From positions 806,001-870,000 of the forward strand of contig OZ005693.1 in assembly GCA_963930775.1 (NCBI GenBank): a stretch of 64,000 bases of DNA. The letters run 5' to 3'. The stretch comes from Cliona cf. orientalis (Eukaryota > Porifera > Demospongiae > Clionaida > Clionaidae). The notes beneath the pieces are model-generated. The model was not told the DNA's origin. It worked only from the letters and a program-made list of their open reading frames with translations, and searched no databases. This document shows, one piece after another, positions 9,500-53,365 of this stretch (the first letter of the stretch is position 1; each line of letters begins with the position of its first letter). The position numbers and the translations under genes were made by a program.

Positions 9500-12400
9500 C
9501 TACGCTTGTAGCACGTCACCGACTGATATCAGTGAGTAGCTGAGAGAGACAGCGTAGTGTACTTGTGCGTGGCTAGGTCAGGAAATGTTCTACTGTACAT
9601 GAAAACAACAGTTGTGGACTTACCCTAACCATATGCCTTTCTCTTTAGCAGCTTCTCTAACAACTCTCCATCCTTTGTCAGTAATGGCGTTGTTGGCATA
9701 GAGGCTGTGGGTGCAAGGAGAGGCCGACCGCCATGACACACTAACTCACCTAGCTAGGCTAGTCTAGTAAGTAGACAACATTATTGTAGCTAGGTCAACT
9801 TACTCTAAGTGCTTAAGATTAGCCATTGTCTTGATGGCGTCGGACAAGGCCTTGGCTCCTTCATCGCCGATGGAGTTGAAGTGGAGGCTGTGAGTGGAAG
9901 GAGAGAGGAAGACACCAACCGCCATGACACACTAACTCACCTAGCTAGTCTAGTAAGTAGACAACATTGTAGCTAGGTCAACTTACATCAACTCCTTAAG
10001 ATTAGCCATTGTCTTGATGGCGTCGGACAGGACCTTGGCTCCTTCATCGCCGATGGAGTTGGCACTGAGGCTGTGAGTGGAAGGAGAGAGGAAGACACCG
10101 ACTGCCATGACAGGAGGGAGGAAGACACTGACCGCCATGATACACTAACTTACCTAGCTAGTCTAGTAAGTAGACAACATTATTGTAGCTACTCTAGTTG
10201 TTAGCAAATTATGCCAATAGAGTGGGTGTGGTCGATAAACCACAGACATGCTGAACGGAATTTGTAGCACTAGTATTAAAGCGTTTTTGAGCAATTTGAA
10301 GCGCGTATAGACCAGTTTTCACCGATATCTATCGATTGAATGTGCTTATAGCACGCACAGATGCCTAGAAGGTGAGATATGGCGATTTTTGTGCCGACGA
10401 CGACGACAACGACAACGACAACGACAACGACAGACAGACAAACCGATTGCTTTACCCCTTGCGCATGCGCGCGGGGTAATAAAACACTTAGGCCAGTAAA
10501 CGTGCAGCTGCCAGAAATTAAACTTCCCACCGCGTACGTAACATCAAATTTGATTGGCCGGCCAACACCAGCTAGCCCCACCCAATTTTGCACATGCACG
10601 AGCAATGCCTAGCGAGCTACACCCTCTGCGTGAGCGCATAGAGGAGAGTCAAGTAACCTATGGCCAGACTAGCACCAAATTCACGTACTCAAGATATTCA
10701 AGGTCATATCGTTTATCCTTCCTGAATAAAGCCCTGCACCCATCATCACCCATGGAACAGCTTTCTAGGTACACTTTGAATTGTCTACAATGGGTGAGAA
10801 AGTAGCCCACGGAAAGACAATCTGCTGGACTGAGGCTGATCCCCTCTAGACCTCGCAGCTCCCCTTTGAGTTCCTTGGCTACCAGCTGACACAGAGTCTC
10901 ATCTTGAGCTTCAAAGAGACAGTGTAGCAATGAGAGAAGAAGCGGTTGGGATTTGTGGCCCAAACTCGAGCCACCTGAATCCAGATCAGAGTTGGTACCA
11001 GAATGAGGTGTTAGTTCTGTTACTGCACTGTCTCGCATACACTTCTGTACAGCTAAGATAACGATTTCATCCATTCCTTGTGCTTTAAGTTTAGTTTTGG
11101 CAGCATAAAACTGGAATACAGCACTAAAGCGAGCCCGACCAAAGAGTTCCTTGAATTGTGCCACTTGCTCACTCGGATCCATCTTGGTAGCCATGTGAAT
11201 GGCCGCCAACTGTTCTTGTATGGAGAGATGGAGGAAGTTGTAGGAGTGTGATGGCATTCCACTAGCAAAGCTTTCTACTCCCTGAAGTAAACCAAGAGTG
11301 TTGAAACTGTATTCAAGGTCAAAGGTTATATGGTCTTCTATCACTCCCTTGTATGCTATCTCACAAATATGTTCGAACTGACTTTGAATGGTAGTTGGAA
11401 GCTTATCCAGTGACTTTATTCCACGTATATCAAGTTGCTCCTTCTTTTTTTTCAGATGCCGAAATATGCAGTTACAGGTAAGTGCAGAAAAAATGCCAAA
11501 TTGAGTATGTGGAAGTACACCATCACACTTGAAAAGGTGGACCAGGATGCTGGCATTCAAAGGCAAGTAGCAGCTGCCTTCTACAAATGGGTTTTCTTTG
11601 ATTCTTTGCTGCAGTTCCTTGACCTTGCCATGATCATCTTCCAGGCATCCAGTAAAGTACTTCTGCAGTTCAATTTTTGTGAATCCCAAGATTTCGATTC
11701 GAGTGTTAACAAGTTTATGAAGATTCATTGATGAGATGGGGCGAGATGTGATGATCACAGAGCTTTTGTGTAGCTGTTTGCAGTCTAGTATGTCTCTGAT
11801 GATGGAATGGCCTGGTGCTTTTTCTGGTAGCTCATCCCAGCCATCAAAAATGAAGAGAACACCTTCTCCATCACGAGTAGTTATCTCCTTCTCTGCATTT
11901 TGTCCCATTGTGCCGTTTCGTTTTGGTAACAAATCAGCTATGCTCTTGGCATTTTGAACTACTTCTTCACGCAATTTCACCAGTATGACTTGACTGTATT
12001 CTTTCAATAATTGATTAGCTACCCACTCATGGCAAATGTGCAGAGAGAGGGTACTTTTCCCACATCCTGGGGCTCCTTCAATCAATATTTTCTTTTGTTC
12101 TGATTTTTCAAAGATTTGTTCAAGTGTGATGGGAACCTTTCTTCGTAATATATCATCTATCTTGCCTGTAATAGTCTCATGTATAAATTGATCATCAATA
12201 TTTCTTCGCTGCACTTGTTCCGGCATGATCATTGCCAAACTAAATACTTTATCAGTTACCGGAGGAGGCCAGTGGTCATCGCCACTGAAGCTAGCTTGAG
12301 TCTTGGCTTTGTAGAGTGATTTCAAGTATGCAGTAAACTCTTCTAACTTGTCATCAGATTCTGTGACTTCAGACTTTCTATCATCAGCTACAGTTATAAG

Positions 12401-15345
12401 AGCATACAGGGTAGTAAACAGGCATAAATTACTATCGTATTGCTAAGCATCATCATGCACTCATCACTATAATAATTATTATTTTAATCAAGCTTGCTTG
12501 CATAATAATACCTTCTGCATTTGAGACAAGCTTAGATTGAAGAGCTACTCTGATAATTTCTTTAGTTGGTCTTGAGCTGTTTCTGAGCCAGTGCTTAATC
12601 ATTTCTTGAAGGCAGTCATTAACCTTTCTGCAGTCTTTCTCGATTGCATCAAGTGTACCAGTGTCCACACACAACTCGATACCTATAGACTTCCATCTGG
12701 CACGATAGTCCCACATCTCATCAAGCACTTCTTTTATGTTGTTAATATTGAGGACATCTGCATAATATTATGCATGCATCCGATTCTATTGTTCAAACTA
12801 TATTATATAATATACTATAATTATCTATAGGCATTATAATGACTCTTATTAAGTATATATACTGCTTCAAGATGCTTACCTTCAGTGTTACATGTTTTTG
12901 GCTTAGTTTCCTTCTGCAGGGATGCAGTCAAACTTCTCACTAAAAATGTTAATATGCATAGAACAGCAGTATATCAAAAATTTAATATTAACCACTGTAC
13001 ATTCAAAGTACTGTAGCAGGTTTAAAAACTGTATAGGGATGCATCTGATCAGTTAATATACATTTCTACAACTTTTGAAGCTGGAATGCAATAAGACTGC
13101 ATGGTCACTTCCTTGGCCTGTGTGTCTGCATAAATCTCCCTCTAGCTATTTGTGAACAAGAAAAGCAATTCTAAGTCGTGAGTTCATGACACCTTTTATA
13201 TATAGGGTAAAATATTATAGGCTATCATATTAACTTAGCCACATTTCCACAATGTCTGGAAACTTGATGCTATCCAAATATTGGTAGTACCTATAGTACC
13301 TGCTGAATGATTTAAAGCAATTTGTTTGGCCAGCTCGTGACTATCTCCACCGCTCTTTTTGCTGATAGCTTCCACCAACATCCGCCATGTGGGTGGACCA
13401 TGTTTCTTCTTATCATACTTTTGATTGAGCCACAGGAGCAATACATCTTCAAGACCATCTGAATCACTGGGATGTTCATCACGAATCTTTCGCAAGTCCG
13501 TTATTTTCAAATTCAGTGATCGCCCAAGATTGTAGTACCTTGATTCTAAGGGCAGTATCTCCTCAATGATTGTAGATAGATCATCTTCATCTATATAGGA
13601 TGAGCAAATTAATTCCTCAACATCATGCAGTTGGTGCATAAATTATTAATAACTTACTCAATTCCGTTGTATCAATGGAATCAAAATCAATATCTGTGTG
13701 AATAGACGTTAACATTATGCATGGTATATCATTATACTAAGATTATAGTTGTCTGTGCATGCGTACGAGCGGGAGGTGACCGGAAGCGATTCAACCCGAG
13801 CTAAAAAGTTTTCTTTTTCGGCGTCACTGGACTTGGGGCGATACAACAGACAGCCCACTGACACGGCTGGCTATGGCCCCAGCAGCCACTAACGTGAGCT
13901 ACTTCAAAAAAATGGCAGGGCAGAATTAGACTGAACTGTAGGCTTACATGTGGCGGCCTGGAGAATGCAAAAGGGTGACATTCTGGAGTCGATGTTGCCC
14001 ATAGGTACTCTTCAGAGGGAAGCGATTCTATTCTAAGCGCCTTCTCTTGGGACCCCTTGCGAGCGAAGCTGCAAGACAAGTAACGAATTCTTTAGCTAGC
14101 TGATTGACGATGTCACATGATTAGGCAGGATGTGCACGTGTGGTAGCTTTATCTCTGCGCATGCGCACAAACATGTAGGTAAAGGTCGTCGAGCACACAT
14201 GCACAATATTAATAATAGCCACGCACAGGGATAAAGGAGTGCACTCCTTGTATATATATATATTATTATTTGGCTATTTTGTATATTATTGTCAAGCAAA
14301 TGTAACATAGTGTTGTTGTAATTATACCTCCAACAGGTCCAGGGTTCTCCTCGACATCTCCAGATATCAGCAGTAGAGATAAGATGATAGAAGCAGCTAC
14401 TGATAATGCAACATCCAGCACCGCTTTTGCCACTACCAACACCCATGTCCCCTGGAGCTTGCAATTGGTCATAATCACAACTTTTACTTCAGTATCAACG
14501 TAATGCAGCTTCTCCACCAGGTCCTGCTTATTGGCCAGGGCTTTCCATAGAACACTCAAAGATATCAGACAGTCCACTGTCTGTATGACTGAATGCATAA
14601 TAATTTATTTATTACTGCTATTATAGATGAAGGAGTCATGCATACATACACAAACTACATTATGACATTGTATTAGTACAAACAAGTTACAATGGCATTA
14701 GTTTTGTACATGTATGTATGTTGAGTATATAAATTCAAACATGCAGAGCACTCCCCACAGCTATAGAGAGCTACCTGAGAGGATCAGCAAGTGGTCTGGA
14801 TGCAGTGACGAATTAATCATTTTCAGCATCAGGAAGATTGAGTAGTAAGCAAAGCAAGTTCTAAAGGAGAGGCTCTCTGATAAATCACCATCGATTCCAG
14901 CTTTTGATCTTCTGATGGCTATGGATAATAATTGGTAGACGAGAGCAGAGGTAATCTGAAGGATCACGGTGAGAACAAAGCCAAGATTGATCAAATACAT
15001 TCTGTCAGGGATGGTACCACCTTTGCAAAAATCTGCAAAAAATGCACACACCACCGAAATACCGAGGCATGCAGACATTATGGCAAGCTATAAAAACTAT
15101 GTTGACCATGCATAACACTCACTCAATAGTGGGAGGTGATGTCCCCTTGCTACTAAAGTACGTAGCCCAATATTGACTCCAATTGACATTATCAATAGTA
15201 AGAGTGTTGCTACTCCTTGACTCAGTGTCAAAGATCTTTGAGTAGTCTTTCCTCTAAATGGTGACCTCATCTTGAATGGGTGGCCCAGGGCACACCATGA
15301 AGACCCAATGCGAGCCCTCCACTCTCCAATGCTCCAATATGGCAT
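9500..15345 (-). CDS. NLR receptor A: membrane module-2A-Death-Death-NACHT-LRR
   Basis: Twelve exons can be joined with GT/AG sites into one open frame of 1120 aa: 15345-15123, 15032-14775, 14588-14328, 13693-13658, 13590-13300, 12939-12880, 12757-12512, 12387-10689, 10070-9987, 9887-9804, 9704-9624, 9539-9500. The first three encode five predicted membrane segments and end in ISGDVEENPGP, a 2A recoding motif. Exons 5 and 7 are death-fold domains, exon 8 the NACHT ATPase, the next two single LRRs, then a cap repeat and a short tail. NLRs of this type are cytosolic pattern sensors that oligomerise through NACHT and signal through death domains. A 0.5-kb element (13745-14255) sits in the intron after the 2A exon. 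Start chosen because unit B conserves the same ATG. The last exon is the least certain. Confidence 0.85.
9624..10070 (-). CDS. LRR cassette exons of NLR A (two repeats plus cap)
   Basis: Exons 10070-9987 and 9887-9804 are each 84 nt and encode one 28-residue LRR of the NLR/RI type (NSIGDEGAKVLSDAIKTMA...). Exon 9704-9624 (81 nt) is a divergent last repeat. The exons start and end in phase 2, so any number can be added without shifting frame. Strand-facing residues are D-L-SA, I-L-HF and D-L-YA. Confidence 0.85.
10211..10479 (-). mobile_element. Helitron-like fragment in the LRR-NACHT intron of NLR A
   Basis: Carries the same TTACCCCTTGCGCATGCGC palindrome (10452-10479), the ACGACAACG microsatellite and the 'GATATGGCGATTTTTGTGC' block as the elements at 6626-7606 and 38632-39264. 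The distal end is not clear. About 0.8 kb present in unit C between LRR array and NACHT is missing here. Confidence 0.5.
10689..12387 (-). CDS. NACHT ATPase exon of NLR A
   Basis: A single 1699-nt exon. The Walker A motif GAPGCGKST is near residue 563, Walker B LFIFDGWDE near residue 636, sensor-1 VIITSRP follows, and the winged-helix region carries FLHLSIQEQLAAIH, the NLR FxHxxxQE signature. The C-terminal part (SLLHCLFEAQDE, SLSPADCLSVGYFL) is the usual NLR pre-LRR helical region. The exon ends in phase 2 after LEYL-(D), giving the first LRR strand LDL. The copy in B is exactly the same length. Confidence 0.95.
12512..12757 (-). CDS. Death-fold domain 2 exon of NLR A
   Basis: Residues RWKSIGIELCVDTGTLDAIE, then a helix with KVNDCLQEMIKHWL, and a final helix IIRVALQSKLVSNAEG, match the Death/DED superfamily pattern (helix 2 with Trp-x-x-Ile-Gly, helix 3 'x-L-x-x-I'). 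The exon is 246 nt, phase 1-1. Confidence 0.75.
13300..13590 (-). CDS. Death domain 1 exon of NLR A
   Basis: The translated exon contains the helix pattern LGRSLNLKITDLRKI and then GPPTWRMLVEAISKKSGG and LAKQIALNH, a classic six-helix Death-domain layout with the conserved Trp. It is a phase 1-1 exon of 291 nt. The preceding 36-nt exon (13693-13658) encodes an acidic linker. Confidence 0.85.
13745..14255. mobile_element. Dispersed element in NLR A intron (inverted copy at 17640-18120)
   Basis: Reverse complement of 17640-18120 over about 0.5 kb, including the GGTAAAGGTCGTCGA word and the CTTGCGAGCGAAGCTGCAAGACAAG stretch near one end (given in parts: CTTGCGAGCGAAG, CTGCAAGACAAG). Unit B has no insertion in the same intron. 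Exact ends and target duplication are not clear. Confidence 0.55.
14328..15345 (-). CDS. N-terminal multi-pass membrane module ending in 2A (NLR A)
   Basis: Exons 15345-15123, 15032-14775 and 14588-14328. Hydrophobic segments lie at roughly residues 41-63, 87-114, 131-149, 157-180 and 209-235, with basic stretches between. The fifth segment runs directly into GDVEENPG/P (residues 237-245). 2A motifs of the form D-x-E-x-N-P-G-P make the ribosome skip the Gly-Pro bond, so residues 1-244 are predicted to be released as a separate membrane protein. I do not recognise the family. The WRARIGSSWCALG motif near the N-terminus is identical in unit B. Confidence 0.75.
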
Positions 15346-19590: not shown

Positions 19591-19718
19591 GTACAGTCAA
19601 TTTTGCTTGCGTTTGAACATGCGTGATTGCGTGCGTGCGCGTGCGTAACGCCCCGCCCCACATAGTACTACACATATTCACTAGCTGGCTGCAATACGCA
19701 TGCTCAGAATTCAAAAAA

Positions 19719-20703
19719 ATGTCCGCGGAACCTGGAAGAAAAGCGCCTTATTCTGTTGACCTTCGCCACAGAATGATATGGCAGAAGATAGGCATGGGCT
19801 TGACTTTTAGAGAAGTAGCGAGAAATTTGAATGTGTCACTTGGTACAGTACATAATATATTTCGTCTGTTTAAAGAAACTGGCGAGGTGGATCCAAAACA
19901 TCCAGACAGAACCTCTACTAGAAAACTGTCTTCCAATGAGGAATTAATACTTGTTGGCTTGATTCTGGATAATCCTGGCCTATATTTGGGAGAAATTTGC
20001 CAAAATATTGCTGATGTTACCGGTACACGGATTTCTTCACCAACAGTGTGTCGTATTCTCCGCAAGCATGGTTTAACCCGTAAGAAAATCCAACAGGTTG
20101 CTTTGCAAAGATCAGCAATCACCAGAGCTAAGTTTATGGCTGATATGCAATTTTTCCACACAAACCAACTTGTGTGGTTAGATGAAACTGGATGTGACCG
20201 ACGAGATCATATTCGGAAACATGGGTACTCCTTGAGAGGGGAACGTCCGGTGTATCATCGTTTTTTACACAGGGGTAATAGAGTGTCTGCTATCACAGCC
20301 ATGTGCACAGATGGAATTTTAGCCACGGAAGTATTTTATGGTACCCTGAATGGTGAGAGATTCTTAGACTACCTCAGAGGAAGTCTCATTTCTGAAATGT
20401 TATATACCTTTTGATGGAATATCTGCACGATCAGTATTGGTCCTAGACAACTGCAGTGTGCATCATGTGAGCGGTGCACTTGAATTGCTAAGCCAGGCAG
20501 GTATACTGGTAATGTTTCTTCCACCGTACAGCCCTGATTTAAACCCTGTGGAGGAGCTGTTCAGTGCAATCAAGTACTATCTTAAGGACCATGATGACAT
20601 TTTGCAAGCAATGCCAAACCCAATCCCTTTACTAAAGTCTGCCTTTGATTACATCTCTGTGGAACAATGCAATGGGTGGATCTCACACAGTGGAATTTAT
20701 TAA
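19719..20703 (+). pseudogene. Tc1/mariner-type DD34E transposase, frameshifted
   Basis: The start MSAEPGRKAPYSVDLRHRM leads into a helix-turn-helix (GLTFREVARNLNVSLGTVHNIF) and the first catalytic Asp in VWLDETGCDRR. The second Asp is in VLDNCSVHH and the Glu in YSPDLNPVEELF, with 34 residues between the last two. The frame breaks at about 20403 (GTTATATACC), where the first part stops at 20414 and the rest continues in another frame from 20415 on. A 4-bp TATA insertion would explain the shift. It is thus probably inactive. Confidence 0.9.
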
Positions 20704-36910: not shown

Positions 36911-39900
36911 CTACTTGTGCGCGGCCGTGCGAGCGGGAGGATAAAAGAAGCTATGGCGGCTCTCGTGAAGATGCAGGCCACTTGCCGAGCTCCACGCTTG
37001 TAGCTCGTCACCAACTGATGATAGTGAGTAGCTGAGAGAGACAGCGTAGTGTACTTGTGCGTGGCTAGGTCAGGAAATGTTCTACTGTACATGAAAACAA
37101 CAGTTGTGGACTTACTCTAATGCTAGGCCTTTCTCTTTAGCAGCTTCTTCAAGAACTCTTCTTCCTTCGTCGGTAATGGCGTCGTTGTCCCAAAGGCTAT
37201 GGGTGGAAGGAGAAGCCGACCGCCATGATACACTAACACACCTAGCTAGTCTAGTAAGTAGACAACATTATTGTAGCTAGGTCAACTTACATCAACCGCT
37301 GAAGATTAGCCATTGTCTTGATGGCATCGGACAGGGCCTTGGCTCCTTCATCGCCGATGGAGTTGTAGCTGAGGCTGTGAGTGGAAGGAGAGAGGAAGAC
37401 ACCGACTGCCATGACACACTAACTCACCTAGCTAGTCTAGTAAGTAGACAACATTATTGTAGCTAGGTCAACTTACTTCAACTCCTTAAGATTAGCCATT
37501 GTCTTGATGGCGTCGGACAGGGCCTTGGCTCCTTCATCGCCAATGGAGTTGCCACTGAGTCTGTGAGTGGAGGAAGAGAGGAAGACACCAACCGCCATGA
37601 CACACTAACTCACCTAGCTAGTCTAGTAAGTAGATAACATTATTGTAGCTAGGTCAACTTACTTTAACTCCTTAAGATTAGCCATTGTCTTGATGGCGTC
37701 GGACAGGACCTTGGCTCCTTCATCGCCGATGGAGTTGCCATTGAGGCTGTGAGTGGAAGGAGAGAGGAAGACACCGACCGCCATGACACACTAACTCACC
37801 TAGCTAGTCTAGTAAGTAGACAACATTATTGTAGCTAGGTCAACTTACTACAACTCCTTAAGATTAGCCATTGTCTTGATGGCGTCGGACAGGACCTTGG
37901 CTCCTTCATCGCCGATGGAGTTGCCATTGAGGCTGTGAGTGGAAGGAGAGAGGAAGACACCGGCCGCCATGACACACTAACTCACCTAGCTAGTCTAGTA
38001 AGTAGACATCATTATTGTAGCTAGGTCAACTTACTACAACTCCTTAAGATTAGCCATTGTCTTGATGGCGTCGGACAGGGCCTTAGCTCCTTCATCGCCG
38101 ATGGAGTTGTAGCTGAGGCTGTGTGTGGAAGGAGAGAGGAAGACACTAACCGCCATGACACACTAACTCACCTAGCTAGTCTAGTAAGTAGACAACATTA
38201 TTGTAGCTAGGTCAACTTACTACAACTCCTTAAGATTAGCCATTGTCTTGATGGCGTCGGACAGGGCCTTGGCTCCTTCATCGCTGATGGAGTTCTCAGT
38301 GAGGCTGTGAGTGGAAGGAGAGGCCGCCCGCCATGACACACTAACTCACCTAGCTAGTCTAGTAAGTAGACAACATTATTTTAGCTACATCAACTTACTG
38401 CAACGTCTTAAGATTAGCCATTGTCTTGATGGCGTTGGACAGGGCCTTGGCTCCTTCATCGCTGATGGAGTTGTTGTAGAGGCTGTGAGTGGAAGGAGAG
38501 AGGGTTGAAGACACCGACTGCCATGACACACTAACTCACCTAGCTAGTCTAGTAAGTAGACAACATTATTGTAGCTACTCTCTAGTTGTTAATTATAATA
38601 GTAGGTAACTAGCATTAAGTCTAGGTATTTATTACCCCGCGCGCATGCGCAAGGGGTAAAGTAATCGGTCGTGTCGTCGTTGTTATCGTCGTTGTCGTTA
38701 GCACAAAAATCGCCATATCTCGGGATATAGGCGTCTAAGCGACTCGTAAGCACAACGAATCAATCGAATTCGGCGAAAAATTGGCTTCAGTGTGCGTCAA
38801 ATCGAGGGATAAGGTCTACGAGCGTCACAAATAGTGCTTTTTTGTTGGCCGCCATAGCCACGCCTATCGGCAGTGCCCAGCAATGCATAATGCATGCCAT
38901 TACATTGTGCTTTCTGCTCATGCGCATAACTAATAAGCGTATGACTGGTAAAGATCGTCGATGTTCTAATGTTCTAAATAATGCTCGTGACGTCTATAGT
39001 GACTGAAATCTGAAGCCCCATGGAACCAATCACTATGTAAGATAGCTATACTGTTATCACAACAAAATTTAGGTACAAGTTCATGTCTTCCTAGTCCGGG
39101 CTAGATCTGGGTGCAGAGAGCACTGTTTCAAGTGTCACTGGGACAACTAAGCAGCATAATTTTCCATTATTTCTCTCAAGTTCACAAAATTATAGCCATG
39201 CACCGATAGTAAATCTATAGATTGCGCAATGTGCGCGCGGGGTATGTGCTCTACAGAGCTCTAGTTAATGTTGTTATTGTTAATGACAAGTAATATAAAG
39301 GAATTTTAATCTTATCACCATGGTAACAATAGTGAGTAATAGTGATTAATGTTATTGTATCGGGCAAGGTACAAGTGGTGGTAAAATTCAATGTTGTCAT
39401 GGCAACCACATTAATTACCGGATGTTATTAAAGTTAATTAACACGGCTTGGCAGCAGCTGCATTTAGCCGATGGCTAGCTGTTGCCTTTGGCTATGGCGG
39501 TTTCAAAAAGAAGCCCGAAGCTGTTGGTTTAAAAGGCAGAGCTGGTTTGTAGAGGATACTTTTAAATTTAAAAACGCTTGTTCATCTGCTAGCTTTTAGT
39601 CTCGATACCAGACTGCTCCCACCGCAGTGTTCAATTCTTTCAGGATGAACGCGCGGAAAGAACTAAACGCTGTGGTGGGAGCAGTCCGGCTTGCCAGACT
39701 AGCTTGCTTTGGATGGCAGGCTACTTGCTGACAATGTACATTTCAATATTGTTACACTTGGCTTGCCATACACCTTCCCGTGAAGGTTACGTATGTACGG
39801 TATCAATAGGCAATTTTTACAGTAGGCTCTGAAGGTGACAAGCCTAAGGCTGTTTCAGTAAAGGGCCTGGGTACGAGGCTAGAATTCCTCCCCTCCCCCT

Positions 39901-42900
39901 AAAAGGGCCTGGGCACAAGGCTAGGCTAGAATTACACCAGCCTGTGAACTAAAGGTGCCCAAGTGGGACATTTGTGGCTATTCATAGATATTAATGAATA
40001 AACAGCTAAAAGAACGGTAGTTGTCAAACAATATTAAATAGATTCGCGCTCAAAATGTTTAATACAACCTGGCAAAACAATTATATACATACCATTATAT
40101 CATCGAGCCTCTCATTTCAGTACAGTGTCACGTCTATTACGACACAGAACTTGAGCTGCACCAACTACTTTCACTTTTTACTTGCAAAATAAAACAAACG
40201 TGCAGCTGCCAGAAATTAAACTTCCCACCATGTACGTGACATCAAATTTGATTGGCAAACATCAGGTAGCCCCACCCAACTATGCACATGCACAAACAAT
40301 TTCTGGCGAGCTAGTTAGACCCTCCGCAATTTTGCGCGTGCATGCATATACATAGAGGAGAGTCTAGTTCGCCAGATCATAGACTATGGCCACAAATTCA
40401 CGTACTCAAGATATTCAAGGTCATATCTTTTATCCTTCCTGAATAAAGCCTTGCACCCATCAGTACCCATGGAACAGCCTGCTAGGTGCACTTTAAATTG
40501 TTTACAATGGGTGAGAAAGTAGCCCACGGACAGACAATCTGCTGGACTGAGGCTGATCTCCCGCAGACCTCTCAGCTCCCCTTTGAGTTCCTTGGCTACC
40601 AGCTGACACAGAGTCTCATCTTGAGCTTCAAAGAGACAGTGTAGCAATGAGAGAAGAAGCGGTTGGGATTTGTGGCCCAAGCTGGAGCCACCTGAATCCA
40701 GATCAGAGTTGCTAACAGAATGAGGTGTTAATACTGTCGCTTTCCTTTCTTCCGTGCACTTCTGTACAACTCGGATAACGATTTCATCCATTCCTTGTGT
40801 TTTAAGTTTAGTTTTGGCGGCATAAAACTGGAACACAGCGCTAAAGCGAGCCCGACCAAAGAGTTCCTTGAACTGTGCCACCTGCTCATTCGGATCCATC
40901 TTGGTAGCCATGTGAATGGCCGCCAACAGTTCCTGTATGGAGAGATGGAGGAAATTGTAGGAGTGTGATGGCATTCCACTAGCAAAGCTTTCTACTCCCT
41001 GAAGTAAACCAAGAGTGTTGAAACTGCATTCAAGGTCAAAGGTTATGTGGTTTTCTATCACTCCCTTGTATGCCATCTCACAAAGACGTTCAAACTGACT
41101 CTGAATAGCAGTTGGGAGCTTATCCAGTGACTTTATTCCAGGTATATCAAGTTGCTCCTTCTTCTTTTTCAGATGCCGAAATATGCAGTTATAGGTAAGT
41201 GCAGAGAAAATGCCAAATTGAGTATGTGGAAGTACACCATCACACTTGAAAAGGTGGACCAGGATGCTGGCATTCAAAGGCAAGTAGCAGCTGCCTTCTA
41301 CAACTGGGTTTTCTTTGATTCTTTGCTGCAGTTGCTTGACCTTAGCTTGATCATCTCCCAGGCATCCAGTAAAGTACTTCTGCAGTTCAGCTTTTGTGAA
41401 TCCCAAGATTTCAATTCGAGTTTTAATAAGCTCATGAAGTTTCATTGACAAGATGGGGCGAGATGTGATGACCACAGAGCTTTTATGTAGTTTATTGTGT
41501 TCTAGTATGTCTATGATGATAGAATGGCCTGGTGCTTTCTCTGGTAGCTCATCCCAGCCATCAAATATGAAGAGAACTCCTTCTCCATCACAAGCAGTTA
41601 TATCTTTCTCTACATTTTGCCCCATTGTTCCGTCGCGTTTTGGTAACAAATCAGCTATGCTCTTGGCATTTTGAACTACTTCTTCACGTAATTTCACCAG
41701 ACTGAGTATGACTTGACTATATCCTTTCAATAATCGACCAGCTACCCACTCATGGCAAATGTGCAGAGAGAGAGTACTTTTCCCACATCCTGGGGCTCCC
41801 TCAATCAATATTTTCTTTTGTTCAGTTTTTTCAAAGATTTGTTTAAGTGTGATGGGAACCTTCCTTTGTAGAATATCATCAATCTTGCCCGTAATAGTCT
41901 CACGTATGAAATGATCGTCAATATTTCTACGCTGCACTTGTTTCGGCATGATCATTGCCAAACTAAACACTTTATCAGTTACCGAAGGAGGCCAGTGGTC
42001 ATGGCCACTATAGCTAGCTTGAGTCTTGGCTTTGTAGAGTGATTTCAAGTATGCAGTAAACTCTTCTAACTTGTTATCTGTGACTTCGGACTTCGTATTA
42101 GCAGCTACAGTTATAAATAGCAAACAGGGTATTAAACATAAATTTCATCTTGCTAAGCTATATTCACCATCATGACAGTGAGCTTAGCATTACCATGCAC
42201 TCATAATAGCTCACAATAATAATAATATTATTGCAATATTATACTTTGCTTGTATACAATAATACCTGCTGCATTTGAGACATGCTTAGATCGAAGGGCT
42301 ACTCTGATACTTTCTCGAGTCAATATTGGTCTTGGACTGTTTCTGAGCCAGTCCTTAATCATCCTTAAAAGGCAGTCATCAACCGTTTTGCAGTCTTTCT
42401 CAATTGCATCAAGTGTACCGGTGTCAACGTCTAACTGGATTCCAATAAACTTCCATCTGGCACGATAGTCCCACATCTCATCAAGCACTTCTTTTATATT
42501 GTTAATACTGAGGACATCTGTAGCTGCATCCGATTCTGTAGGCCAAATTATGGTCTGGCTCATGATAATGTCTTGCATGTAAGTACTGTTTCAATATGCT
42601 CACCTTCAGTGTCACATGCTTTTTGCTTAATTTCCTCCTGCGGGGATGCAGTTGAAGTTCCTGCTATATACATCAAAATCATAGTATTATTGTTGCACAT
42701 AAAATAGGATGGCAGTACAAAGTGTTCCATGCATGAAACAAGAGTTGTATAAAATTATTTATAGCATGCAGGTACACACTTTGTACAATCCAAGTAATCA
42801 GCCATATATATATACTACCTGCTGGATGATTCAATGCAATTTGTTTGGCCAGCTCATAATTATTTCCACCACTCCTTTTGTTGACGGCTTCCACCAGCAT

Positions 42901-44854
42901 CCGCCATGTGGGTGGACCGAATCTCTCTACATTGTACTCTTTTTTAAGCCATAGAAGCAACACATCATTAAGTGCTCGCTCATGATCAGATTCATTGGGA
43001 TATTTTTTACAAATAGCTTCTACGTTTTCATTTCGTAATCTCAAGGATCGACCAAGGGCAAAGCACATTGATTTAATATCCAATACTTCTTCCATGATAT
43101 CAGTCAAATCATCTTCATCTATATAATATTATATAACGGTATTACTATAATTTTTATTATTGCAGCTTCAAATCACTCACTTAATATTTGACTGTCGTCA
43201 ATACTCTTGTAATCAAGGTCTGCAGAAATATAACAGCAAGTTAGCAGTAATAATCATATAGTTCTACAATGATCCTTGAAAGTTTGAGTTTGAAATAATA
43301 CTATATATACATACCTCCAACAGGTCCAGGGTTCTCCTCAACATCTCCAGATATCAGTAGTAAAGATAAGATGACAGATGCAGCTACTGATAACGCAACA
43401 TCCAGCACCGCTTTTGCCACTGCCAACACCCATGTCCCCTGGAGCTTGGTCATCATCACAACTTCTACTTCAGTATCAACATAATGCAGCTTCTCCACCA
43501 GGTCCTGCTTATTGACCAGGGCTTTCCATAGAATACTCAAAGATATCAGACAGTCCACTGTCTGTATGACTGCATGCATAATAACTATACTTATTACTAG
43601 CTATTATAGATGTGAAGATTTTAAGGAGTCATGCATACATAGTAGTACTATAATATGCATAATGTATAATATTATTATTGTACTATATATAAAAATTATT
43701 ATTACATCCCCAGTATAAATTTACTTTTTTGCGGTTATAAGGTAATTATGTTGTAATTATGATGTAACCTATGTCGTCATAGCGCTAAAATTCAGAGCCT
43801 TTACAGAACACTTCTGAGACCTGAAAATCCACAGAATCGTATATTAACTTACATACATATCCAGCGAATACATTAAAAGCCGAGTGCTACTTTCTCCGAC
43901 AAGTAATGCCAGCCGAACTTCACGCGTTCTCTTGGCTGACGTAATCCTGTGGATAAATAAAGCTAGCCTTGCGCTATTTATAGCACGCGTCATGCCACGA
44001 CCGATCTGAAGTTCGGAAGCTGTACTGTGCTGTCGAGTTCATCTCCTTTGATTGAAGCATCGAAACTCGAAGTCGAAAGTTGATCTTAGACTCCATCTCT
44101 GCGATTGAGGCCCCGGCATCGATGTGTGTATTGACGACCTTTACCACATGCACCATTAGAACTATGCAGCCACTGGGGATGTGGTCAAGGGTTCATTATT
44201 ATACAAACTACATCATGTATTAAGTGTATGTATGTTACGTATATACATTCAAACATGCAGAGCATTCCCCACATGCAGCTATAGATAGCTACCTGAGAGG
44301 ATCAGCCAGTGGTCTGGATGCATGCGCATTGACGAATTGATCATTTTCAGCATCAGGAAGATCGAGTAGTAAGCAAAGCAAGTTCTGAAGGAGAGGCTCT
44401 CTGATAAATCACCATCGATTCCAGCTTTTGATCTTCTGATGGCCATGGATAATAATTGGTAGACCAGAACAGAGGTAATCTGAAGGATCGGGGTGAGAAC
44501 CAAGCCAAGATTGATCAAATACATTCTGTCAGGGACGGTACCACCTTTGCAAAAATCTGCAAAAAATGTGTACACCACTCAAATGCCGACATTGTGGCAA
44601 GCTAAAAATTGTGTTGACTATGCATACCACTCACTTAATAGTGGGAGGTGATGTCCCCTTGCTACCAAAGTGCGCAGCCCAAGATTGACTCCAATTGACA
44701 TTATCAATAGAATGAGTGTTGCTACTCCTTGACTCAGCGTCAAACCCCTACGAGTCTTTCCTCTAAATGGTGACCTCATCTTGAATGGGCGGCCCAGGGC
44801 ACACCATGAAGACCCAATGCGGGCTCTCCACTCTCCAATGCTCCAATATGGCAT
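36911..44854 (-). CDS. NLR receptor B: membrane module-2A-Death-Death-NACHT-LRR
   Basis: Seventeen exons join into 1292 aa without a stop: 44854-44635, 44556-44293, 43569-43315, 43219-43181, 43118-42819, 42663-42604, 42517-42266, 42104-40406, seven 84-nt LRR exons between 38482 and 37291, cap exon 37196-37116 and tail 37031-36911. Domain order equals NLR A. The first part ends ISGDVEENPGP at residue 244, so the predicted products are 243 and 1049 aa. Splice phases agree exon by exon with A. The tail reads 26 residues longer than in A and C because their TAG is TGG here; this end is less certain. An inserted block (43737-44172) lies in intron 2 and a Helitron-like element (38632-39264) between LRR and NACHT. 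Confidence 0.87.
37116..38482 (-). CDS. LRR cassette array of NLR B (seven repeats plus cap)
   Basis: 84-nt exons start at 38482, 38304, 38118, 37932, 37746, 37560 and 37374; the 81-nt cap starts at 37196. The period is 186 bp (once 178), exon plus a nearly invariant 102-bp intron that begins GTAAGTTGACCTAGCTACAA and ends TCTCCTTCCACTCACAG. Each exon is one LRR. In order, the exposed strand residues are D-L-YN, H-L-TE, Y-L-SY, Y-L-NG, Y-L-NG, K-L-SG, N-L-SY, then I-L-WD in the cap, while the remaining part is almost unchanged. Confidence 0.9.
38632..39264 (+). mobile_element. Helitron-like non-autonomous element (unit B)
   Basis: Inserted between A and T: unit C at 62630 reads GGTGTTTATTAATG uninterrupted. 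Starts TTACCCCGCGCGCATGCGC (palindrome closing with GGGGTAA), then TCGTCGTTGTTATCGTCGTT microsatellite; ends GTGCTCTACAGAGCTCTAG, a hairpin followed by CTAG. No target duplication. Same family as 6626-7606. Confidence 0.65.
39270..40380. other. Intron between LRR array and NACHT exon, NLR B
   Basis: Homologous to 62640-63600 in unit C. It holds the foldback and GGGCCTGGGTACGAGGCTAG-type repeat ends near 39862 and 39905. No further LRR exon was found in it. Confidence 0.45.
39596..39705. repeat. Short foldback repeat
   Basis: CCAGACTGCTCCCACCGCAG pairs with CTGTGGTGGGAGCAGTCCGG across a 55-bp spacer. Unit C lacks it at the matching place (about 62930). Confidence 0.6.
40406..42104 (-). CDS. 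NACHT ATPase exon of NLR B
   Basis: 1699 nt, same length and phases as copy A. GAPGCGKST, LFIFDGWDE, VVITSRP and FLHLSIQELLAAIH are all present. A two-codon difference (VILSLVKLREE) balances a deletion elsewhere. It ends in phase 2 after LEYL-(D). Confidence 0.95.
42266..42517 (-). CDS. Death-fold domain 2 exon of NLR B
   Basis: Contains RWKFIGIQLDVDTGTLDAIE and IRVALRSKHVSNAAG. Phase 1-1, 252 nt. Confidence 0.75.
42819..43118 (-). CDS. Death domain 1 exon of NLR B
   Basis: Contains FALGRSLRLRNENVEAICKK and GPPTWRMLVEAVNKRSGG. It is more diverged from copy A than the NACHT exon is, with a three-codon insertion. Confidence 0.85.
43315..44854 (-). CDS. N-terminal multi-pass membrane module ending in 2A (NLR B)
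   Basis: Exons 44854-44635, 44556-44293, 43569-43315. Hydrophobic segments match those of copy A. Substitutions are conservative; two-residue indels occur (MRMHPDH; MTKLQG). The 18 residues ending in the 2A Pro differ from A at one position at most (VILSLLL for IILSLLL), so the recoding signal is maintained while flanks drift. Confidence 0.75.
43737..44172. other. Unit B-specific block in NLR intron 2
   Basis: About 435 bp with no counterpart in the same intron of unit A (14590-14775). It ends with TTGACGACCTTTACCACATG, a word shared with several elements here (7251, 17671, 38951 reversed), so it is probably a mobile element whose ends I could not define. Confidence 0.4.
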
Positions 44855-50763: not shown

Positions 50764-53365
50764 TCAGCTGCTCCCCTTCTTTAAGTTTCTTAGAATGTGG
50801 AACCGCCACATCCACTGGACTGTGTACTTCAGGTCGAGGCATTTCTTGATCACCTTTCGGAACATCTGCTCAGCTTCGTGCTCTGACTTGTCGAGAACTA
50901 GAGCGTTGCGAATATAGTCCGTGTCCTCCACGCAAGTTAACTCTGGGATGCCTGTGGAACGCATCTGAGAGGGAAAGGAAAGGGAGACAGAAGAGATGCA
51001 GGGAGAGAGGAAGAGAGAGAGGGTGTAAGGGAGGGAGAGAATTGGGGGGGGGGGGGGGGGGGGTGTTGACAGAGAGAGAGAGACGTGATAAATTTTTGGC
51101 CGAGATTTGAAATTTAGCAAGCTGCTTACTAGTGAGAAGAGGTTGATGATGAGGTCTGAGTGTCTGCGTAGGATCAGAAATGCTCGGCAGCAGAGGTTCT
51201 TGTATGTTTCAAATGTGCTGCTATCCTGTAAAGAGATTTTTGCCATAAATACTTCATTTAAAGGATCACTTTCTGCTAAGTATACATGTACCTCTCCTCC
51301 CATGACCCACACAAAATCTGGGGTGAGAACAAATGGAGCCCACTCTCTTTTGAAGCCCTGTACAATGATGAAAGGGGAGAGAGAGAGAGAGAGAGAGAGA
51401 GGGTGGGGGAGAGGGACAATGTGATATAGGCTAATAGTGCCATAAAAATGATATTTATGTACCATAATGTATTTGATGTTTCCGAGAAAGTGTCCAAAAT
51501 CGATGTGGAAGAGATTACCAGATGTAGTCACCATGATGTTATCGTTGTGACGATCACCAATACCCTACAGTGGTGTGTGGTGTATAATCACATGACTAAT
51601 AATGTGACCTCAATATAGTAATTATATTACATACCAGTACATATGTTGCTACGGAGTATCCAGCACATGAATGTATAAATATCTTGACAGCTGCCTTCAA
51701 CTTGTCAGGATCCACCTCTCCAAATTCACTGAGAGAGAAGGGAAAGCTCATAATAATATTATTAAACAAAAAAATTTTCAAGTATCACATGTTCATCCTT
51801 AATAAGTAGGATGAACTGCCCCTCGAAATAGCCACCAAAGCCCCTACCGGGATTTGGTGGTTTGGGGGCTCTGGGCATGGTTTGCCGTACCCTCTACAAC
51901 TCCGGTTGCCTCCCATTGTAGTGCCCCCATCCTAATTATCCGTCCTTAGCCCAACTTGGGGGGCTATTAAGTGGGAGGAGCTTACCACCATACCCAGGCC
52001 CTTCACAGATGTCACACAGAACTGTGACTCTGGATTACAACCTTAAGTAGAGGGAGGGATCATGGGTAGGACAAAGCAGCAACTTTCCTTTTGCTAGCAC
52101 GAGGTACTTGTCAGACTGAGCATGCTCATACCACCATGCATTACCTCATCTTTTTCATATACTTACTCGTATCCACGTAGGCAGAATCCTATCTTATTTG
52201 CCAACATAATATGACACTTCACCTAATTATCCTACTATCTATCCTTTGCATGCGCATGCAAGCCTTCCATAGTTCATCCCTTATTAACTTAGGTTAAATG
52301 ATTGACATCTAACCCGCATTTAAGCCCTTTGACTAGTAATCCCACGTGCAGTGGTGTCGCCAGGGGGGTGCATGTGGGTTCATTTGCACCCAATCTATGC
52401 ACCTGTGCACCCATCCTATGCATGTGTTGTTTACCCTATGGCCTGTCACAGATGCATATAATACTCACTACACAGCCAGTAATGTAACCGTGTCATATTA
52501 AATATTGCATCACTACATATATGTACACAAACTGTCTACATGGAATAGTATCGTAGGTTAACTTATTACGCTATTAATAGTACTACACTATACGTATACT
52601 ATAGTACGCTTCCGCTAGCTTTATGCGTGCGGTTGCGTTCAATAACTTGCACCCAGATAAACAATCGCCTAGAGACGCCACTGCCCACGTGTATGCAGGT
52701 GACCACATTATGTACCAGTATGCGTGTATGTGTGTGTGTGGGTGGTTTGAGGGTTTGATCAATCAACCTGTAACTGATGAATTGAAGCTGGCATAGTTTT
52801 AATGGCTTCCATGGCAGGCCACCTGCAAGCTAAAGCTGGACATGACAGCACAGCAGATGTACTATAATAATATTATTATAATACATAATACATGCATGAT
52901 CAGTTGTTGTCATGTGGAAGGAGAAAGGTAAGGGGTGATGAAATAAAAAAAAAAAATCTAGAGACGCTAAATTAAATGGTAATAGCAGCTATGGTCACAG
53001 TACCGGTGGGTGTGTGCGCATGTAATAATTATGTGAGAGCAATAATTAATCATTATAAAACCAAACTACGTGTATATAGCTAGCCAATCATGATATGAAT
53101 TGAATTCTCCAGCTGACCTTTTCAAAGAGAGAGAACATTCTGAGGGTGATCATGTGACAGTCTTGTCTCAAATCATCTCCGATCTTGAGTATCAGTCTGG
53201 TCGGTGTTTGCGTCAGCACAGTGGGATCAATGTTTGACATCTCCAACCACTGAGGCTTCTGTACTCAACAAAAAAAATTGGATAATATTAGGTTAGTACA
53301 ACTCGAAATTCTACTACAATTATAATAATTATACCTTCTTTGAATGTTGGAGATGTTGAGCCATG
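50764..53365 (-). CDS. Class I PI3-kinase catalytic subunit, C-terminal part
   Basis: Exons 53365-53335, 53258-53118, 51728-51635, 51564-51463, 51357-51292, 51225-51130 and 50964-50764 encode the kinase domain end: HSKK/KPQWLEM, LILKIGDDLRQD (ATP-lysine region), HSCAGYSVATYVL, catalytic loop GIGDRHNDN, activation-loop start FHIDFGHFLGN, GFKREWAPFVLTPDF, LPEL-like IPELTCVED and a C-tail WMWRFHILRNLKKGSS then stop. These match p110-type lipid kinases. A stretch of about 60 residues between the second and third exon was not found (a hAT element and other repeats fill that gap), and the amino-terminal domains are absent, since MAGE exons begin only 426 bp beyond on the other strand. It is therefore a truncated copy or a gene whose 5' half lies elsewhere. 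Unit A lacks it. Confidence 0.8.
51040..51063. repeat. G-run (about 20 bp) in PI3K intron
   Basis: Homopurine stretch gagagaattgggggg... followed by a GA-rich microsatellite. Assembly of the run length may be unreliable. Confidence 0.8.
52349..52683. mobile_element. hAT-like element with 8-bp TSD in PI3K intron
   Basis: CAGTGGTGTCGCCAGG at the left, AGACGCCACTG at the right. CCCACGTG on both sides (52341-52348, 52684-52691). 335 bp, no coding capacity. Confidence 0.85.

Follow-up and report, generated by a model that had tools for sequence, protein, structure and literature searches.

The window analyzed here, a stretch of 64,000 nucleotides from the sponge Cliona cf. orientalis (GenBank assembly GCA_963930775.1, contig OZ005693.1, positions 806,001 to 870,000), carries two genes, A and B, for receptors of the nucleotide-binding, leucine-rich repeat (NLR) type. 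Both genes have the same domain order, in which a hydrophobic module and a 2A (StopGo) octamer, DVEENPGP, are followed by a Death domain, a Death-like exon, a NACHT domain, and leucine-rich repeats (LRR). The models start at an ATG at 15345 (gene A; 10 modeled exons, 1080 amino acids) and at 44854 (gene B; 15 modeled exons, 1230 amino acids), both on the minus strand, and run with 0 stops to the last listed LRR exon, short of the stop codon. Junctions are GT/AG; introns 1 to 7 are in phase 1, and later introns are in phase 2. A preliminary description of this DNA had proposed that exons 1 to 3 of both copies are open, splice in phase 1 into the Death exons, and encode a membrane product of about 244 amino acids (aa). 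Its coordinates were right: the joins 14328/13693 (gene A) and 43315/43219 (gene B) run in frame into the Death exons, and the NPG of the octamer reaches residue 244 in gene A and residue 243 in gene B, so that the predicted released products are 244 and 243 aa long.

Receptor domains were assigned by a Pfam scan of gene A, and gene B was assigned by exon-by-exon matching to gene A (Table 1). Downstream of the 2A, gene A matched PF00531 (E value, 4e-06), PF05729 (1.8e-20), and PF13516 (3.8e-05) above the cut-off, and its spliced frame unites Death, NACHT, and LRR, the combination by which an NLR was recognized. Exon 7 of gene A had no Pfam match of its own, and its likeness to Death exons comes only from weak cross-matches of the d1 and d2 profiles. 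The d1, d2, and n profiles were built partly from loci that they then matched, so their E values are inflated; the BLAST matches are independent of them.

Table 1. Exons and 2A octamers of receptor genes A and B (window positions)
Gene	Feature	Position	Strand	Basis or remark
A	Exon 1: ATG, conserved basic N-terminus MPYWSIGEWRARIG, hydrophobic segment 1	15123..15345	-	
A	Exon 2: hydrophobic segments 2 and 3	14775..15032	-	
A	Exon 3: hydrophobic segments 4 and 5, then 2A	14328..14588	-	
A	2A/StopGo octamer DVEENPGP, predicted skip G244/P245	14335..14358 (searched core 14336-14358)	-	
A	Exon 4: 36-nt linker after 2A	13658..13693	-	
A	Exon 5: Death domain	13300..13590	-	PF00531 above cut-off
A	Exon 6: linker	12880..12939	-	
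A	Exon 7: second, Death-like exon	12512..12757	-	Weak d1/d2 profile cross-matches
A	Exon 8: NACHT NTPase and following part	10689..12387	-	Pfam
A	LRR exons, 84 nt each	10070-9987 and 9887-9804 (span 9804..10070)	-	Pfam
B	Exon 1	44635..44854	-	
B	Exon 2	44293..44556	-	
B	Exon 3, ends in 2A	43315..43569	-	
B	2A/StopGo octamer DVEENPGP	43322..43345 (searched core 43323-43345)	-	
B	Exon 4: linker	43181..43219	-	
B	Exon 5: Death exon	42819..43118	-	56% identical to that of A
B	Exon 6: linker	42604..42660	-	
B	Exon 7: second, Death-like exon	42266..42535	-	
B	Exon 8: NACHT exon	40406..42104	-	Matches A exon
B	Seven LRR exons, 84 nt each	37291..38482	-	

Next, the frequency of the octamer was examined. 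The window holds two copies of it, whereas 100 shuffles gave a mean of 0.01. The genome searched comprises 216.8 Mb in 149 contigs. The pattern DxExNPGP had 155 matches (100 of them individually listed; three class listings hold 28, 67, and 30), compared with 1 for the reversed pattern. Replacing the last Pro of D[V/I/M]ExNPGP with Ala left 2 matches, and replacing the first Pro left 0; these control patterns permit V, I, or M as residue 2, a form taken by at least 125 true octamers. A chance motif was rejected on the basis of the shuffles, the reversed pattern, and the Pro-to-Ala variants, and confinement of the 2A to one gene pair was rejected because the octamer recurs in further module copies genome-wide. 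The preliminary observation is thus confirmed at its coordinates and stands far beyond chance.

A search of the genome with the module returned 103 exon matches. The close family was defined as 26 loci, 20 from this search and six more via tblastn. All 26 carry the three module exons in order on one strand, and in all 26 the module closes with a 2A octamer of the form (D/G/C/N)(V/I)ExNPGP (25 D[V/I]EENPGP and one NVEENPGP); at L043/L048 the octamer lies 7.7 kb beyond exon 1. An in-frame stop precedes the exon-1 ATG by 1 to 30 codons in 26/26 copies and a purine occupies position -3 in 21/26, which makes the predicted start codon credible. Splice sites were found at homologous places in 20/20 surveyed copies, 19 of which had no in-frame stop; because the search accepted only in-phase sites no more than 12 bases away from the homologous place, this finding is partly built in. 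Two features were not built into the search, namely, the GTAT donors (20/20) and the acceptor phases of the Death exons (26/26).

The linkage of the module to receptor exons, which the preliminary description had suggested seeking elsewhere in the genome, was found throughout the close family. The residues P[V/I]GG follow the 2A in 26/26 copies and spell the G|GTAT donor printed in 20/20. Each of the 26 copies has a downstream Death exon in the same acceptor phase, which the script did not impose, and the first matched Death codon lies 186 to 2164 bases from the octamer. The distance between the octamer's first residue and the first in-frame stop varied widely, between 12 and 70 codons. NACHT homology followed in 18 of the first 20 loci (all except L010 and L025) and in 2 of the 6 others, where the stretch read was short.

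To characterize the module itself, substitution rates, hydropathy, and database similarity were determined. The ratio of nonsynonymous to synonymous substitution rates (dN/dS) was 0.39 when pooled pairwise over 18 copies, L012 and L025 being left out (the exon-3 alignment was made without L013, which has stops in the range). By part, the ratio was lowest in the first 33 aa (0.13) and was 0.24 in the ten 2A columns and 0.27 in segment 5. Hydropathy was run on six copies: four had five hydrophobic stretches, gene A had six, and L009 lacked the third and had another near residues 193-211. With the scales combined, the first, second, and last stretches were strongest, and in the close family the last hydrophobic segment merges into the 2A. 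The preliminary description had placed the 2A at the end of exon 3 after a predicted fifth membrane segment; the octamer is where it was said to be, and the segment number is less sure, 4 to 5 being the safe statement for the predicted topology. When gene A was taken as five segments with the N terminus inside and the stretch at 195-213 as a loop, the inner side carried 16 Lys and Arg residues and the outer side carried 3, and this charge bias favors a lumenal or outer location for the C terminus of the module and its 2A tail. The module matched 0 Pfam families and 0 PDB sequences at E 1, and no relatives were found in IMG/VR viral contigs; assignment to a known sequence family was rejected on the Pfam and PDB results.

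The residues around the octamer were compared with those of viral StopGo sites. The passages of PMC12846837 (2026) on these sites describe L-rich upstream motifs 2 and 6, with a motif 6 example active in lysate. Each of the 37 distinct 30-residue contexts collected, 19 of which belong to the close family and 18 to other loci, had an L/I/M-rich hexapeptide ending in SG, AG, or CG before the octamer, in keeping, on visual comparison, with the class described in PMC12846837; the collection would have missed any context with a stop in its last part. The single close copy with NVEENPGP (L042, 3882-4142, minus strand), otherwise open in the exons read, fits a working site, because a viral example with N at octamer position 1 kept about 90% or more of activity in the data given in PMC12846837. 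The contexts also include frames with no tblastn similarity to the module (L001-L003, L035, and L036). That the octamer and its context are kept after dissimilar upstream frames argues for selection on recoding itself.

To ascertain how wide the arrangement is, exon-1 starts and further octamers were surveyed. A 36-residue consensus of the exon-1 start identified 47 EWRxRIG places, a lower bound, 46 of which lead to a 2A. For 44 of them, a same-strand octamer is listed at a distance of 0.6 to 7.7 kb downstream, by a pairing that relied on a hand-typed list of 48 octamer places, and two more lead to DVEMNPGP (L049) or NVEENPGP (L042). A second large octamer class, D[V/I]ELNPGP, had 67 matches; at five of its loci (L001, L002, L003, L035, and L036) the 2A closes a long open frame with at least one hydrophobic stretch, judged by eye. 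Seventeen 2A loci outside the close family were fetched, and in 12 (L001, L002, L003, L013, L015, L029, L030, L033/L051, L035, L036, L040, and L041) the 2A is followed on its own strand by a Death or Death-like exon. In the Pfam scan, L001 had a Death match above the cut-off, L035 and L041 had subthreshold ones, and L030 and L036 had none, so that several of these calls rest on similarity to the Death exons of gene A. Five nonfamily loci (L041, L040, L029, L013, and L015) run on into NACHT.

Two of the nonfamily layouts differ downstream. In L036/L039 (C13), an open frame with hydrophobic stretches and a 2A are followed by a Death-like exon; a subthreshold TRADD-like_N match comes next, and ankyrin repeats, identified by Pfam in L039, lie beyond it. 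L035/L038 (C18) has the same layout by eye, with TRADD-like_N again below the cut-off. The ankyrin exons likely belong to these genes, which probably represent a second receptor family with the 2A arrangement. Thus, the linkage to NLRs claimed in the preliminary description stood, and the restriction to NLRs did not: in L036/L039 the 2A precedes Death-like exons and ankyrin repeats with no NACHT in the stretch read, and the arrangement probably extends beyond NLRs.

At the level of sequence, the module exons, the splice signals and their phase, the octamer with its L-rich context, its conservation among paralogues, and the linkage to Death exons are established. We interpret genes A and B as each encoding, in one polyprotein frame, a multisegment membrane module, a StopGo/2A site, and a Death–Death-like–NACHT–LRR receptor, with a probability of roughly three in four (about 0.77). 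Dozens of Death-type receptor genes in this genome would then probably start with a small membrane protein released at a 2A, and one mRNA would give two partner proteins. In the proposed mechanism, the first module segments would be inserted at the endoplasmic reticulum. With the Gly of NPG at the peptidyl-transferase centre, the 2A stretch in the exit tunnel would block formation of the Gly-Pro bond. Because the last hydrophobic helix would still be in the tunnel at that point, release of the module must precede insertion of this helix, which would take place afterwards. The ribosome would resume at Pro and yield a cytosolic receptor beginning P-V/I-G. By the positive-inside rule, the C terminus of the module would be lumenal or outer; skipping would then be what keeps the receptor in the cytosol, and a rare failure might misroute it. 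The suggestion in the preliminary description that failed skipping leaves a membrane-anchored receptor fared less well, since by the charge count an unskipped receptor is more likely to be translocated than anchored in the cytosol. The earlier interpretation is partly supported: its main line holds, the fate of unskipped product is probably a different one, and synthesis of the two products in equal amounts from one mRNA is a prediction.

Other explanations were weighed against this one. If the 2A served dual targeting only, the module would be a bulky leader of no consequence, and partial skipping would split the receptor between the cytosol and the secretory pathway, as proposed for sea urchin NLRs. 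The 26-aa 2A signal sequence described for echinoderm NLRs in the relevant parts of PMC4981915 is a direct precedent, and the merging of the last hydrophobic segment into the 2A would suit such a leader. However, a leader needs only about 25 aa, whereas about 240 aa over three exons are under purifying selection that is strongest in the first 33 aa. Moreover, viral examples of four context classes, including an L-rich one, showed about 93% skipping or more in the assays that PMC12846837 presents, so that little fused product would remain. We regard dual targeting only as unlikely and favor a released module that most likely has its own role at the membrane, because purifying selection extends over ~240 residues and not only over a leader. 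What the module might do there, for instance as a partner, an anchor, or a sensor for the receptor made with it, is a guess, of which a membrane partner is the most economical form.

Alternatively, the 2A could be inactive in this animal and the genes could encode membrane-anchored or secreted NLR fusion proteins, a reading to which the transmembrane domains reported for sponge NLRs, and taken for those of membrane-bound receptors in the part of PMC12909245 concerned, would lend itself. Against it, 25/26 close copies keep the octamer and the one N change has a viral counterpart that is about 90% active or more; the octamer with its context is also retained where the upstream frame has no detectable similarity to the module, and the charge bias would place an unskipped receptor outside the cytosol. 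We consider an inactive 2A very improbable. The least probable of the readings is that exons 1 to 3 form a separate upstream gene and that the receptor is expressed from its own promoter past the 2A exon. In 3/26 copies the Death exon begins 0.8-2.2 kb past the 2A, as a separate gene might allow, but there is no conserved stop after the 2A, the GTAT donor is present in 20/20, and the Death acceptor is in the same phase in 26/26. A 2A is not known to have a use at the end of a gene, which also counts against this reading.

Several results weigh against the polyprotein interpretation. L050 has an EWRxRIG exon 1, Death, and NACHT in line with no octamer in the 4.5 kb read, and it is either a natural loss or a differently built gene. 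Five nonfamily 2A loci (L008, L031, L032, L037, and L049) had no Death exon in the stretch read. Among 104 listed NACHT matches, 12 had a listed octamer within 10 kb upstream, so most listed NACHT genes seem to do without a 2A; the hand-typed octamer list behind this pairing lacked the C1 E-V-N class, most C13 tandem places, and all C18 places, as well as octamers absent from the pattern listings, and 103 of 490 NACHT candidates were scored. Not every close copy is an intact gene: L012 and L022 carry stops in later exons (the d2 exon and the NACHT exon, respectively), exon 1 of L012 is damaged, and the Death exon of L025 is broken. The close copies are recombining paralogues and hence not independent, and the dN/dS values pool them. 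The topology is based on hydropathy and charge counts for six copies whose stretches are not all alike; the third segment is weak, and the fourth, although hydrophobic, has a poor score on an insertion-type scale.

The arrangement was compared with known systems. The parts of PMC4981915 (Roulston et al. 2016) that treat NLRs report 2A-like sequences in 85 of 241 (about 35%) sea urchin NLRs, located at or near the N terminus, with a 26-aa sequence in 14/87 NCBI entries; recoding and signal-sequence targeting in cells are reported there mainly for SpNLR2A6. The preliminary description had cited this N-terminal precedent correctly, and SpNLR2A and the sponge genes are alike in that both are NLR genes of animals and have a 2A-like sequence toward the N terminus. 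Because the echinoderm precedent is a 26-aa signal sequence, the multisegment module differs from it: where the sea urchin 2A described in those parts is at or near the N terminus, a 240-aa, three-exon module with multiple hydrophobic segments precedes the 2A here, and NPG falls at residue 244 or 243, after several hydrophobic segments and not within a signal peptide of ~26 aa. Transmembrane segments in sponge NLRs are confirmed in a passage of PMC12909245, a 2026 paper on Dysidea avara NLRs, that credits an earlier A. queenslandica (Amphimedon) study. Those sponge NLR gene models have transmembrane segments, as are predicted for ours, and differ, by description, in being interpreted in that passage as putative membrane-bound NLRs; the string NPGP has 0 occurrences in the main text of that paper. 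The viral StopGo sites treated in PMC12846837 share the form (D/G/C/N)(V/I)ExNPGP after an L-rich hexapeptide ending in (A/S/C)G, but they lie in viral polyproteins, whereas the present ones lie in cellular genes, and by the statement on this point in PMC12846837, cellular coding sequences contain StopGo motifs only in very rare cases. Neither PMC4981915 nor PMC12909245, in the parts concerned with NLRs, describes a multipass module freed by a 2A. No report of a multipass module released by 2A was found in a literature search that had most subscription papers and all bioRxiv preprints outside its scope.

These comparisons bear on why the arrangement would matter. The echinoderm case, as far as PMC4981915 sets it out, involves a short signal peptide, and 2A-using cellular genes are said in PMC12846837 to be very rare. 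If true, a conserved multisegment partner made from dozens of immune receptor genes would constitute an animal polyprotein system in innate immunity, and what are called "transmembrane NLRs" in such animals could then be read as membrane–cytosol protein pairs and no longer as anchored receptors. A broader and tentative proposal, to which we give slightly less than even odds, is that StopGo substitutes for an operon in innate immunity. Receptors of both the Death–NACHT–LRR and the Death-like–ankyrin families would then come from polyproteins, each of which first gives a dedicated membrane partner that is obligatorily co-produced with its cytosolic receptor; one device would have captured several dissimilar membrane modules, and shuffling of module exons against receptor exons would have given new pairs.

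Module, Death, and NACHT exons showed discordant identities among gene A (15345-10689), gene B (44854-40406), and their paralogues, as if phase-1 cassettes had been exchanged. Genes A and B are 92-93% identical in each module exon and 56% identical in the first Death exon. Among paralogue pairs, identity in the module did not correlate with identity in the first Death exon (r = -0.05; 135 nonindependent pairs); the correlation was 0.50 for module versus NACHT and 0.13 for Death versus NACHT. The phase-1 introns around each cassette would allow exon exchange. In L025 (4586-4936), whose Death exon is broken, the last membrane helix before the 2A is present in three in-frame copies (DVALSVAASVILSLLL). 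The LRR exons of gene B (38482-37291, minus strand) are spaced 178-186 bases apart with very similar introns and have the look of recent tandem exon amplification.

Other 2A arrangements were also observed. At L033, tandem 2A sequences, DVERNPGP and DVEMNPGP (L033:1226-1249 and L033:1596-1619; C10:760125 and C10:760495), lie 370 bases apart and are read in different frames; an EWRxRIG exon 1 precedes them, and Death-like exons follow (L051). A similar pair is found at C10:774007 and C10:773803. The L033 pair possibly represents two skip sites with three products, or alternative exons. The E-V-N octamers in the 18-36 Mb region of C1 account for 16 of the 100 listed places, and one, L037, was read. 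L037:252-791 (DIEVNPGP, of the dispersed E-V-N class) has a hydrophobic N terminus, the 2A, and weak helix-turn-helix matches below the cut-off; no receptor domain was found in its open frame, and it looks like a mobile element. Non-LTR retrotransposons are named among 2A carriers in PMC4981915, in the part that lists them; there, the 2A lies in a mobile-element frame. L037, with its hydrophobic N terminus before the 2A, is comparable, but its open frame has only those subthreshold matches, and a retrotransposon identity would be putative. Elsewhere in the window, positions 19617-20411 (plus strand) matched a DDE_3 endonuclease and HTH_23 above the cut-off and constitute a piece of a DNA transposon, and an open frame at 50767-51564 (minus strand) matched the PI3/PI4 kinase domain (PF00454; E value, 5.4e-18).

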